Positions 59,812-63,542 of a stretch of 64,000 nt of DNA are shown here, piece after piece. Both the position numbers and the translations under genes were made by a program. Position 1 is the stretch's first letter; each line of letters begins with the position of its first letter. The DNA is from Pseudomonadota bacterium (GTDB taxonomy: Bacteria; Pseudomonadota; Gammaproteobacteria; Burkholderiales; Eutrophovitaceae): assembly GCA_027624715.1 (NCBI GenBank), contig JAQBTV010000002.1, forward strand, positions 186,636 to 250,635, written 5' to 3'. Below the pieces are notes generated by a model, which was not told the origin of the DNA, did not search any database, and saw nothing but the letters and a program-made list of their open reading frames with translations.

Positions 59812-60849
59812 TTATGCGCTGTGACGTTCTGCACAAGAGATGACTTGTGCGCAGTCCTTAATGAGTTTAGGTCCGCTGTAAATTAAACCAGAGTATATTT
59901 GGACAAGTGAGGCTCCCGCATTGATTTTGTCCAAAGCATCTTGAGGTGTAACAATGCCACCGATCCCTATTATGGGAATGGAGCCTTGTGTTAAGTTTGC
60001 TATCTTTTCGATAATGCGTGTCGATATCTGAGTTAATAAACCACCACTTAAACCTCCAGTTTCGAATAAGTTTGCCAATTGCATATCCGGTCTTTGAACC
60101 GTTGTATTTGTTGCTATGATGCCGTCTAGTTCATAGGTCTTTACTACGTCAACAATACTTTCTAATTGATAATCATCGAGATCTGGGCCAATTTTCACGG
60201 CGATAGGTTTAAATGCGCCATGGATGTTTTGAAGTATCGAGCGGGTCATACTGATATGGCTGAGCAGCCTGTGCAAATTGTCGCTTTGTTGAAGGTTTCG
60301 TAGATTTCTGGTATTTGGCGAAGAGATGTTGATTGCTATGTAGTCAGCTAGTGGGTAGACCTTCCGCAAGCAATGCTCATAATCATGATGAGCATCCTCT
60401 ATTGGTGTGTCTTTATTTTTCCCAATATTTATTCCTATCACTGCATTTCTTTTTGAGCTTTTCACTTTGCTGATGAGGTGATCAACACCTTTGTTGTTGA
60501 AGCCTAGTCGGTTTACCAAAGCCTTAGATTCTGGAACTCTAAAAAGTCGTGGTTTTTGATTGCCTGCTTGTGGCTTTGGTGTGACGGTGCCTAGTTCAAT
60601 AAACCCAAATCCTAGATTTTGTAAGCAGTTTATAAAATCTCCGTTTTTATCTAAACCTGCCGCAAGGCCAATTTTATTTCTAAAATTTAAGCCCATCACG
60701 CGTGTCGGGTCCGTTATGAAGTTTTTTTTATTAGGAGATAAACCCAAACTATCTGCGGTTTTCAGGCTCAAAAGAGCAAGTTTGTGTGCATTTTCAGGGT
60801 CTAATTGAAAGAGAGCTTTTTTAGCGATTTCATAAAAGATCGAGGACAT
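59812..60849 (-). CDS. pyrD: Dihydroorotate dehydrogenase, class 2 (quinone)
   Basis: PyrD oxidises dihydroorotate to orotate, passing electrons to the quinone pool at the inner membrane. The 345-residue protein has the class 2 N-terminal amphipathic helices (FYEIAKKALFQLDPENAHKLAL), GLAAGLDKNGDFINCLQNLGFGFIELGTVTP (~62-92 by segments), the catalytic-Ser segment NISSPNTRNLR (~174-184) and ATNTTVQRP (~246-254). ATG 60849 is the start. It is the fourth member of a minus-strand run aat-bpt-pyrD-rnfB-nth; gap to bpt is 14 bases. Confidence 0.97.
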   Translation of the reverse strand: MSSIFYEIAKKALFQLDPENAHKLALLSLKTADSLGLSPNKKNFITDPTRVMGLNFRNKIGLAAGLDKNGDFINCLQNLGFGFIELGTVTPKPQAGNQKPRLFRVPESKALVNRLGFNNKGVDHLISKVKSSKRNAVIGINIGKNKDTPIEDAHHDYEHCLRKVYPLADYIAINISSPNTRNLRNLQQSDNLHRLLSHISMTRSILQNIHGAFKPIAVKIGPDLDDYQLESIVDVVKTYELDGIIATNTTVQRPDMQLANLFETGGLSGGLLTQISTRIIEKIANLTQGSIPIIGIGGIVTPQDALDKINAGASLVQIYSGLIYSGPKLIKDCAQVISCAERHSA

Positions 60850-60863
60850 TTATTTTCAGAGCG

Positions 60864-61592
60864 TTATAAGGATTCGAGTGGTATCCAGCGATCTTGAACC
60901 AATGCCTCAAGAGGGCGAAATCGTTTTTTATAGGACATCTTTTTACTATCCTCGATCCAATACCCGATGTATAGGTATCTCAGGCCTAGCGATTTACACA
61001 GGTCTAGTTGCCAACAAATACTGTAGGTGCCATAACTGGCTGATTTGTTCTCTATATCGAAGAATGTATAGACAGCGGATAGCCCATCTTCAAGTTGATC
61101 AATAATACTGACAGCAACTACTTTATTAGCATCGCGAAACTCAATCAGTTTCGTATCTACATTGCTTTGGAGTAAGAAGTGTCGGTACTGTTCCTTACTG
61201 TCTTGATCCATGCCCCCGCCATTATGTCGAGCACTTTGATATTTCAGATAAAGGTCATAATGTTCAGTAGAGTTTCTTAGGCCTGTCATTTTGGTTGTGA
61301 GATGGGTATGCTGACTGACCGCTCTTTTTTGAGATCTCGATGGTGCAAACCTTTCAGCGTCAATTCTGACAGGGATGCAGGCGGAGCATGAGTCGCAAAT
61401 TGGACGATAGGTAAAGGCCCCACTTCGTCTAAAGCCAATACCTACTAGATCCGAGTAGATAGTTGCGTCTATCTTGTGGCTCGGTGTTGCGACTTGAGAC
61501 CTTGCAAGCTGATCAGAAAGATAGCTGCATGCATAGGGTGCAGTTGTATAAAACTGTAATTGATTGATGGGGAGATCTCGAAAGTTACTCAT
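60864..61592 (-). CDS. bpt: Aspartate/glutamate leucyltransferase
   Basis: Bpt transfers leucine from Leu-tRNA to proteins with N-terminal Asp or Glu, marking them for ClpAP degradation. The 242-residue protein has PCAYLxxxxA-like TTAPYACSYL (~17-26), the conserved cysteine-rich YRPICDSCSACIPVRID (~62-78), and YTFFDIENKSASYGTYSICWQL with YLYIGYWIEDSKKMSYKKRF near the C-terminus. This length and the C-x2-C-x2-C pattern match bacterial ATE homologues. It is 11 bases downstream of aat, the other N-end-rule transferase, so the two act in one degradation pathway. Confidence 0.96.
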   Translation of the reverse strand: MSNFRDLPINQLQFYTTAPYACSYLSDQLARSQVATPSHKIDATIYSDLVGIGFRRSGAFTYRPICDSCSACIPVRIDAERFAPSRSQKRAVSQHTHLTTKMTGLRNSTEHYDLYLKYQSARHNGGGMDQDSKEQYRHFLLQSNVDTKLIEFRDANKVVAVSIIDQLEDGLSAVYTFFDIENKSASYGTYSICWQLDLCKSLGLRYLYIGYWIEDSKKMSYKKRFRPLEALVQDRWIPLESL

Positions 61593-61603
61593 GGTTAATT
61601 GTC

Positions 61604-62290
61604 CTAAATATGAGGCGATAGAGCAATGCTCGTATCAGTTGGCTGTATGAGTTCGGATAGCAACGCCTCAAACTGTTCTCGCCCTACGGTTTCGGCTCCT
61701 AGTGATTCTAGGTGACTCGAGTGGACTTGGCAGTCAATCATTTCGACGTTTGCGGCGATTAACGTGTCCGCAAAGGTTGTTAAGGCAACTTTGGAGGCAT
61801 CAGATACAAAAGAAAACATAGACTCCCCAAAAAATACGCGACCGATAGACACACCATAGAGTCCTCCAACGAGTTTCCCATTCAACCACGTTTCTACTGA
61901 TTTTGCGATACCAAGATCGAATAGCTTAGTGTAAGCAAACAACATTTCTTCAGTTATCCAGCTGTTTGGATCGTCGCGTCGTTTCGGGCCGCAGTTTTTC
62001 ATTACCTCTTCAAACGATTGATTGATCGTTACCTCAAATTTTTTTTTTCGTAACGTTTTTTGTAAAGATCGAGATTTTTTTAAGAGTTTAGGACGCAGTA
62101 TGAGTCTCGGGTTTGGTGACCACCAGAGTATGGGCTGGTCACTGGTGAACCACGGAAATATCCCCGAGCGATAGGCGCGGATTAAAGTTTGGGGAGATAA
62201 GTCTCCTCCAATTGCAAGAAGCCCATCTGGGTCTTGTAGTGCGGTGTTAGTCGGGGGGAAGGGGTCACCGGGGTTCAAAACTGGAACCAT
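61604..62290 (-). CDS. aat: Leucyl/phenylalanyl-tRNA-protein transferase
   Basis: Aat adds Leu or Phe to proteins with N-terminal Arg or Lys, creating an N-degron for ClpS/ClpAP. The 228-residue protein has GLLAIGGDLSPQTLIRAYRSGIFPWF (from ~24, in segments), WWSPNPRLIL (~57-66), VETWLNGKLVGGLYGVSIGRVFFGESMFS (~131-159 by segments) and MIDCQVHSSHLESLGAE (~182-198). All match Aat. ATG 62290 follows the SOD-like gene, whose stop is eight bases upstream, so that gene may share the transcript. Confidence 0.96.
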   Translation of the reverse strand: MVPVLNPGDPFPPTNTALQDPDGLLAIGGDLSPQTLIRAYRSGIFPWFTSDQPILWWSPNPRLILRPKLLKKSRSLQKTLRKKKFEVTINQSFEEVMKNCGPKRRDDPNSWITEEMLFAYTKLFDLGIAKSVETWLNGKLVGGLYGVSIGRVFFGESMFSFVSDASKVALTTFADTLIAANVEMIDCQVHSSHLESLGAETVGREQFEALLSELIQPTDTSIALSPHI

Positions 62291-62298
62291 TTCTAGGT

Positions 62299-62814
62299 CT
62301 AGAGTGTTGAATTTTTACTAATCAAGCCACATGCAATGACTCGGTTAGAGCTGCTGCCCTCCACCTTGAATGTCAAAAGTAATGATCTTCCTAGGATGCT
62401 GTCATTTCGCGGGCCCGTTAACTTTGCTCCCAAAAGAGTGAAGTGAGATTCAGCTGTGCCATTCTCGTCAGCAACGACATCACCCAGATCTCCAAAGTGT
62501 GGTTTGTTAGTGTCTATTAGTCCTAAGTTATAGTTACTAGGCTTAAACAGTTTTCCAGTGCTTCCTGCTAAGGGATCTCGACAATCTCCAACTTCATAGA
62601 TGCGAAGATTGTGCACGCTATGCGGCACTAAGTTTGATAAGTAGACTTGAACTTTTAGAAAACCCCCGCTGTCATAAAACCGAACCGTTCCATTGCCTTT
62701 TTGGCCACTAATCGGAGCTAAAACAGATACAGCACTACATCCCCATACCAACGAAGTTGCGATGGCGATAATGGTGATTTGAATAAGAGACTTTGAAAAG
62801 TAGTTAACTTGCAT
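62299..62814 (-). CDS. Inactive-looking Cu/Zn-SOD-like lipoprotein
   Basis: A 171-residue protein with an N-terminal lipoprotein signal (hydrophobic ~9-25, cysteine C26 after LVWG). The mature part follows the Cu/Zn superoxide dismutase fold: VYLSNLVPHSVHNLRIYEVGDC, GSTGKLFKP, PHFGDLGDVVADENGTAE, SILGRSLLL and RVIACGLI align with the SOD landmarks. But the copper His-x-His (normally FHIHE) is Arg-x-Tyr, the His of GGHFNP is lost, the second zinc His is absent and the late His (VVHA) is Thr. Only the HFGDLG His and Asp and the two disulfide cysteines remain. Dismutase activity is therefore very unlikely. Its gene precedes aat by eight bases. Confidence 0.78.
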   Translation of the reverse strand: MQVNYFSKSLIQITIIAIATSLVWGCSAVSVLAPISGQKGNGTVRFYDSGGFLKVQVYLSNLVPHSVHNLRIYEVGDCRDPLAGSTGKLFKPSNYNLGLIDTNKPHFGDLGDVVADENGTAESHFTLLGAKLTGPRNDSILGRSLLLTFKVEGSSSNRVIACGLISKNSTL

Positions 62815-62978: not shown

Positions 62979-63542
62979 ATGAAAACTGAGATGCATATCA
63001 GCTCGGATCCTTCTTTATGGGTCACTAAGTGTTCAAAGTTGCTAAGGCCTGGATCAAAAGTGTTAGATTTGGCGTGTGGGTCAGGTCGGCACGCCCGTTA
63101 CCTAGCCGATAGAGGACATTCTGTTACGGCCGTGGATAAAGATGCCGAATCGTTGGCGCAATGCGCAACGTTTAGTGGTATCCATGTGATCGAATTTGAT
63201 TTGGAAATCGGGGTTTGGCCGTTTCTAGAGGATAAGTTTGATGGAATTATCGTGACAAATTATTTACATCGACCAATCATGCCTCATATTGTCAATGGGC
63301 TATCTGATTTGGGAGTCTTGATTTACGAGACTTTCATGGTTGGGAATGAACGTTTTGGTCGACCTAGCAATTCAGAATTTTTGTTGCGAGCCAATGAGTT
63401 GATTGATGTGGTTCGAGAAAAGCTGCAGGTAGTTATGTATGAGGCAGGTCCGGTTAGTCTACCTAAGCCTGCTTATATCCAAAGAATTTGTGCGGTTTCT
63501 CGCGATTATGAATTTGCTGAAAAACGTCTGCCTGACGATTGA
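62979..63542 (+). CDS. Class I SAM-dependent methyltransferase
   Basis: A 187-residue protein with the SAM-binding glycine motif VLDLACGSGRHARYLADRG (residues ~28-46) and the acidic AVDKDAES loop that follows. The post-motif DGIIVTNYLHRP (~83-94) and VLIYETFMVGNERFGRP resemble the small TehB-like methyltransferases found directly upstream of dapA in betaproteobacteria. The substrate is unknown. ATG 62979 begins MKTEMHISSDPSLWV; ATG 62991 is an alternative. dapA starts 59 bases downstream. Confidence 0.85.
   Translation: MKTEMHISSDPSLWVTKCSKLLRPGSKVLDLACGSGRHARYLADRGHSVTAVDKDAESLAQCATFSGIHVIEFDLEIGVWPFLEDKFDGIIVTNYLHRPIMPHIVNGLSDLGVLIYETFMVGNERFGRPSNSEFLLRANELIDVVREKLQVVMYEAGPVSLPKPAYIQRICAVSRDYEFAEKRLPDD

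Follow-up and report, generated by a model that had tools for sequence, protein, structure and literature searches.

Superoxide dismutase (SOD) folds that lack their metals are known mainly from eukaryotes, the described cases being CCS, dominin and some CSRPs, and one review assigns the loss of the copper and/or zinc site to eukaryotic evolution, with CCS, the Cu-only SODs, CSRP and dominin as its examples (PMC13017621). According to the same review, domain II of CCS and oyster dominin act by protein contact or recognition. The bacterial precedent is YojM of Bacillus subtilis (Banci et al. 2005), described as a SOD-like protein made catalytically inactive by the lack of two copper ligands (PMC10432803, PMC8382915, PMC6322740). 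The genus considered here consists of a few uncultured bacteria from aquatic habitats, and a survey of the mostly open-access literature on bacterial metal-less SODs and pseudoenzymes found no mention of it; the candidate family UBA3031 (Burkholderiales), whose name is carried by the record of a relative (L032), is placed in Baltic surface water (PMC11190084).

The stretch of DNA analysed here, referred to as the window, comprises 64,000 nucleotides and carries on its minus strand, at 62299..62814, a gene through which this genus appears to have converted its own periplasmic sodC, in place, into a metal-free, lipid-anchored SOD-fold pseudoenzyme that acts by binding and not by catalysis, a reading to which we assign a probability of about 0.77. 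The reading frame is intact, with coordinates and strand verified, and encodes a putative lipoprotein of 171 residues with a Sod_Cu (PF00080) domain (61.1 bits, E = 1.9e-16, against a cut-off of 28.9), which is the sole PF00080 match in its genome (G000; 1.77 Mb, 97.2% complete). The same model gives 164.2 bits for an intact SodC of a sister genus and 64.9 and 48.5 bits for two other members of the genus, and a phmmer search of the PDB returned 7b4o as the top match (E = 9.6e-13). The framework motifs named in the original prediction (GDC, HFGDLG, SILGRSLLL and IACG) are all found in the protein, and the PF00080 match together with a predicted SOD β-barrel place it among the SodC proteins by both sequence and fold. 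The putative lipoprotein signal peptide (62737..62814, minus strand), read by eye, ends at Cys26 in the lipobox L-V-W-G-C, with an N-terminal helix at residues 6–22 in the AlphaFold model. All six genus members that have the gene keep Cys26; of the 35 other homologues, 34 keep it and one is masked at that position. The first barrel strand begins at residue 27: the linker that would join the lipobox cysteine to the barrel has largely been lost, a feature absent from the original prediction.

Ligand positions are given in human SOD1 numbering and were assigned from the aligned motifs of 35 ligand-complete homologues. In this alignment the window protein has none of the four copper ligands (His46, His48, His63 and His120). 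On the minus strand, Arg71 (62602..62604) and Tyr73 (62596..62598) stand at His46 and His48, Leu89 (62548..62550) at the bridging His63, Leu97 (62524..62526) at the zinc ligand His71, and Thr148 (62371..62373) at His120, so that the alignment bears out an initial reading in which Arg and Tyr replaced the copper His-x-His, the bridging and second zinc positions lacked histidine, and Thr replaced the last copper histidine. Two of the four zinc ligands (His63, His71, His80 and Asp83) persist as remnants, His106 at His80 and Asp109 at Asp83 (62488..62499, minus strand), and no member of the genus has more than two. Both disulfide cysteines are kept, again as first proposed: Cys78 (Cys57; 62581..62583, minus strand) is found in 6/6 genus members and 35/35 other proteins, and Cys162 (Cys146; 62329..62331, minus strand) in 6/6 genus members. 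The original prediction had not included the shortening of the electrostatic loop (loop VII, between positions 120 and 146; 62332..62370, minus strand), where a deletion of six residues leaves 13 in all six genus members versus 19 in all 35 others, with Val in place of Arg143 in the window protein. A Cu-only SOD has an intact copper site and no zinc site; in the window protein the copper site is gone. Because the copper ligands have been lost, loss of SOD activity is the prediction that follows.

Homologues were detected in 44 of 150 genomes searched (the window's own being one of the 150), and five of the eight other genus members have one (54–72% identity). The ligand table contains 41 distinct proteins from 72 loci, six belonging to the genus (window protein included) and 35 lying outside it. 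All seven ligands are kept in every one of the 35, and ligands 46, 63, 71 and 120 as well as Arg143 are lost in all six genus members, the substitutions thus being fixed across the clade. Position 46 is Arg throughout the genus and His in 35/35 others, position 63 is Leu or Pro, 71 is Leu or Phe, 120 is Thr (five members) or Ile (one), and 143 is Val, Pro or Ala; His48 and His80 each survive in four of the six, and Asp83 in the window protein only. The gene was not found in the remaining three of the nine genus genomes (64, 80 and 85% complete), even with a genus profile, and since aat is missing from them too, the locus may simply be absent from the assemblies. One relative in the same family (L008, genome G016) has a SodC with all seven metal ligands, yet with Trp at the position of the catalytic Arg143.

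The surviving residues could mean that the protein is still a metalloprotein, in which a single metal is bound by a different set of side chains (such as His106/Asp109 in the window protein, or His48/His80 in four members), or that it performs other redox chemistry. The window protein does retain His80 and Asp83, and the Cu-only SODs are functional although they lack zinc and have a short loop VII (PMC13017621). No histidine is invariant among the six members, however, the invariant cysteines are limited to the putative lipid-bearing residue and the disulfide pair, and each copper ligand is missing in at least two members, with 46, 63, 71 and 120 missing in all, which makes this alternative improbable.

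Similar pseudoenzymes were sought more widely. In a sample of the order (399 genomes, 101 with a match) the six genus members scored 305–325 bits with the next best at 108, and in a sample of the class (369 genomes, 12 with a match) the window's own genome scored 314.8 bits and the next 53.5; both surveys are samples in which a metal-less SOD dissimilar to the window protein would not stand out. Fourteen class loci were given a crude pattern reading, with a frame found in 12 and with L097 yielding the same neighbour protein as L090. Two of these class members (L092 and L093, genomes G679 and G572) keep the copper histidines and have no His at zinc positions 71 and 80, and are possible zinc-less bacterial SODs.

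Within the window, the gene is followed after 8 bp by aat (leucyl/phenylalanyl-tRNA-protein transferase; 61604..62290), then by ate/bpt (arginyl-tRNA-protein transferase; 60864..61592) and pyrD (59812..60849), all on the minus strand, and is flanked on the opposite side by a divergent methyltransferase (62979..63542, plus strand) with a dapA-like gene next to it. These syntenic anchors define the locus of the genus, in which the SOD-like gene lies between the methyltransferase/dapA pair and aat-ate-pyrD; it adjoins aat in five of six loci, the sixth (L004/L033) stopping at a contig edge. An intact sodC directly upstream of aat is present in 5/5 same-family genomes from two other genera, and is also found there in other families (L012, L014, L016, L017, L018, L019, L022 and L025). 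Because the intact sodC of the sister genera occupies the same place upstream of aat-ate-pyrD, the window gene is, as judged from gene order, the converted ortholog of that sodC. In two genomes of a third genus of the family (G010 and G014), aat adjoins the methyltransferase with no SOD gene between them and no convincing SodC remnant. The genus proteins are monophyletic with 100/100 support in the 41-protein tree, the drawn root of which is a midpoint. L013/L039, with a masked N terminus, was excluded from the structure alignments; in building the trees, its undetermined residues were removed locally. Acquisition by mobile-element transfer was considered and found unsupported: one plasmid record gave a match of 28.5%, no phage record did, and synteny is conserved.

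COX1 was found in seven of the nine genus genomes, so members of the genus probably respire oxygen. Fe/Mn-SOD was found in 0/9 genus genomes and in 2/17 genomes of the family, and superoxide reductase in none of the 17, while Ni-SOD is present in three of the nine genus genomes (the window's not among them) and in 3/3 of the third genus. In G000 itself, which has COX1, no intact-site Cu/Zn-SOD, Fe/Mn-SOD, Ni-SOD or superoxide reductase was recognised. The three Ni-SOD genes of the genus (L082:4720-5202, L083:4731-5213 and L084:4931-5413, in genomes G001, G002 and G006) encode proteins with 93–95% mutual identity, lie in differing gene neighbourhoods, and have an N-terminal signal-like stretch preceding HCQIPCGIYDD. 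These Ni-SODs are possibly mobile and exported, misbinning of the assemblies being an alternative.

The fold of the protein was predicted with AlphaFold in two ways. The model from ten sequences (pLDDT 75.0, pTM 0.70) has eight strands, finds Cu/Zn-SODs as its top Foldseek matches (best E = 6.3e-10), and superposes on human SOD1 H80R with a VIA Z of 17.8 and an r.m.s. deviation of 1.7 over 119 aligned residues. With five genus sequences alone, the best of the five models (pLDDT 71.4 and pTM 0.68, versus a pLDDT of 56–61 for the remaining four) gives a VIA Z of 15.4 and an r.m.s. deviation of 2.5 over 118 residues. The former zinc-loop region is of low confidence in both. The SOD β-barrel proposed at the outset is therefore obtained in two models, one of them from genus sequences only. 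Outside the signal peptide, four segments (residues 27–34, 76–87, 128–147 and 160–171) contain 42 invariant columns out of 52 within the genus, compared with 27/93 elsewhere; in a set of six active-looking homologues with comparable identity the same segments have 28/50 and the rest 35/93. Conversely, former loop VII (residues 148–159) has 0/12 invariant columns in the genus versus 6/12 in the six active-looking homologues. Constraint has moved in the genus, away from the former loop VII, and the barrel-face segments hold most of the invariant columns. The four segments, which correspond to the parts that form the eukaryotic SOD1 dimer interface, were picked after viewing the genus alignment, and their enrichment is descriptive and serves as a lead.

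Codon models for the six genus members gave an omega of 0.213 for the whole gene and 0.180 for the mature part, and fixing omega at 1 worsened the fit by 93 and 97 log-likelihood units, respectively. Purifying selection still acts on the SOD-like protein of the genus. The closest pair (L003/L004) has a dN of 0.027 and a dS of 0.28, which is not saturated, and hence a dN/dS of about 0.1. For reference, aat gave 0.113 and ate 0.063 (five members each), and seven active-looking SodCs gave 0.092, so that constraint is roughly twofold looser in this gene than in an active SodC or Aat (0.21 versus 0.09 and 0.11). With matched taxa, the stem branch of the genus measures 1.36 for the SOD-like protein, 1.17 for Aat and 0.65 for Ate; because the SOD and Aat stems are similar, no special burst is seen of the kind that neofunctionalisation might leave. 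A burst of change suggested by the 41-protein tree (stem of 2.29) was dropped, as the matched-taxon stem hardly exceeds that of Aat.

The looser constraint is what would be expected of slow decay, in which SOD activity had become dispensable and the gene were a dying remnant with a frame intact by chance, and the third genus, with no SodC at the locus and with a Ni-SOD, and the three genus genomes with Ni-SOD point the same way. Against this stand the rejection of omega = 1 and the low dN/dS of the closest pair, the open frame in 6/6 members that have diverged to 54% identity, and the disulfide cysteines and barrel residues fixed in the genus; moreover, the third genus shows clean loss with no detectable remnant. 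Slow decay is accordingly quite unlikely. Scanning the region for promoters and terminators returned nothing above chance. That the frame is kept only in cis, to couple and drive aat-ate-pyrD translationally while the protein is inert, would fit a stop codon 8 bp ahead of the aat start with no terminator-like site between, but is very improbable given the purifying selection on amino acids and the third genus, which keeps aat-ate-pyrD without the SOD-like gene.

In-place conversion to a metal-free binding protein would have proceeded as follows. The family ancestor, as the ligand-complete syntenic copies of the sister genera suggest, would have encoded an active lipoprotein SodC just upstream of aat-ate-pyrD. 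On the branch to the genus, the alignment shows the loss of His46, His63, His71, His120 and Arg143, together with six electrostatic-loop residues and the greater part of the spacer that follows the lipid-bearing cysteine. The disulfide cysteines were retained, as presumably was the eight-stranded barrel that is predicted, and selection has continued to purify the converted protein. The product would most likely work through binding, as a rigid barrel that its lipid keeps near the membrane, with a contact face that, from the post hoc conservation pattern, may comprise the first strand, the disulfide subloop, the Greek-key loop and the last strand; its partner could be the barrel itself or another envelope protein. 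As the metal site is lost and the protein is still selected, it probably has been reused in a non-enzymatic job. The original prediction of a repurposed scaffold rather than decay has held up well: a SOD barrel is predicted, the losses are fixed in 6/6 members, and omega is 0.18–0.21 with omega = 1 rejected. This reading of the protein is well supported, and the new role itself is what we infer from it. Counting against our explanation are the post hoc choice of the face segments, an omega about twice that of active SodC or Aat, the lack of a stem burst, the presence of His48 and His80 in 4/6 members, and the absence of both the gene and aat from three genus genomes. A fuller scenario is tentative and rather doubtful as a whole: the only SodC of an aerobic genus might have become a fully metal-free envelope lipoprotein, using the side of its barrel that is homologous to the dimer interface of eukaryotic SODs to assist a different protein of the envelope as an adaptor or chaperone, with the periplasmic SOD role dropped or, in some species, passed to an exported Ni-SOD.

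Of the known systems, those closest to the window protein include the periplasmic lipoprotein SodCs of the sister genera (for example L009, L010, L011 and L036), which share its locus upstream of aat, 38–41% identity, the barrel, the disulfide and lipobox cysteines and a C-terminal GLISKN motif, but which, unlike the genus, keep all seven ligands and a 19-residue loop, with Arg143 in 4/5. One bacterial family displays a single locus in three states, active-looking, converted and absent, and offers a clean comparative system for the use of a SOD barrel without metals. The Arg that replaces His46, fixed in the genus, is a substitution also studied in human SOD1, according to PDB titles. Among the systems described elsewhere, YojM and the genus protein are both bacterial SOD folds with missing copper ligands, a likeness of class drawn without direct alignment and implying no claim of common descent; unlike YojM, in which two copper ligands are missing, the genus has lost three of four copper positions in all six members and has in addition a disrupted zinc site and a shortened loop VII. 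The Cu-only SODs likewise have an exported SOD barrel without a zinc site and without an extended loop VII, but they keep the copper site and activity, some arthropod CSRPs excepted. Domain II of CCS and oyster dominin resemble the genus protein in being SOD folds without an intact copper site, and differ in being eukaryotic where it is bacterial (PMC13017621). Relative to these precedents, what is new here is a loss that spans both metal sites and a conversion in place that is visible from synteny.
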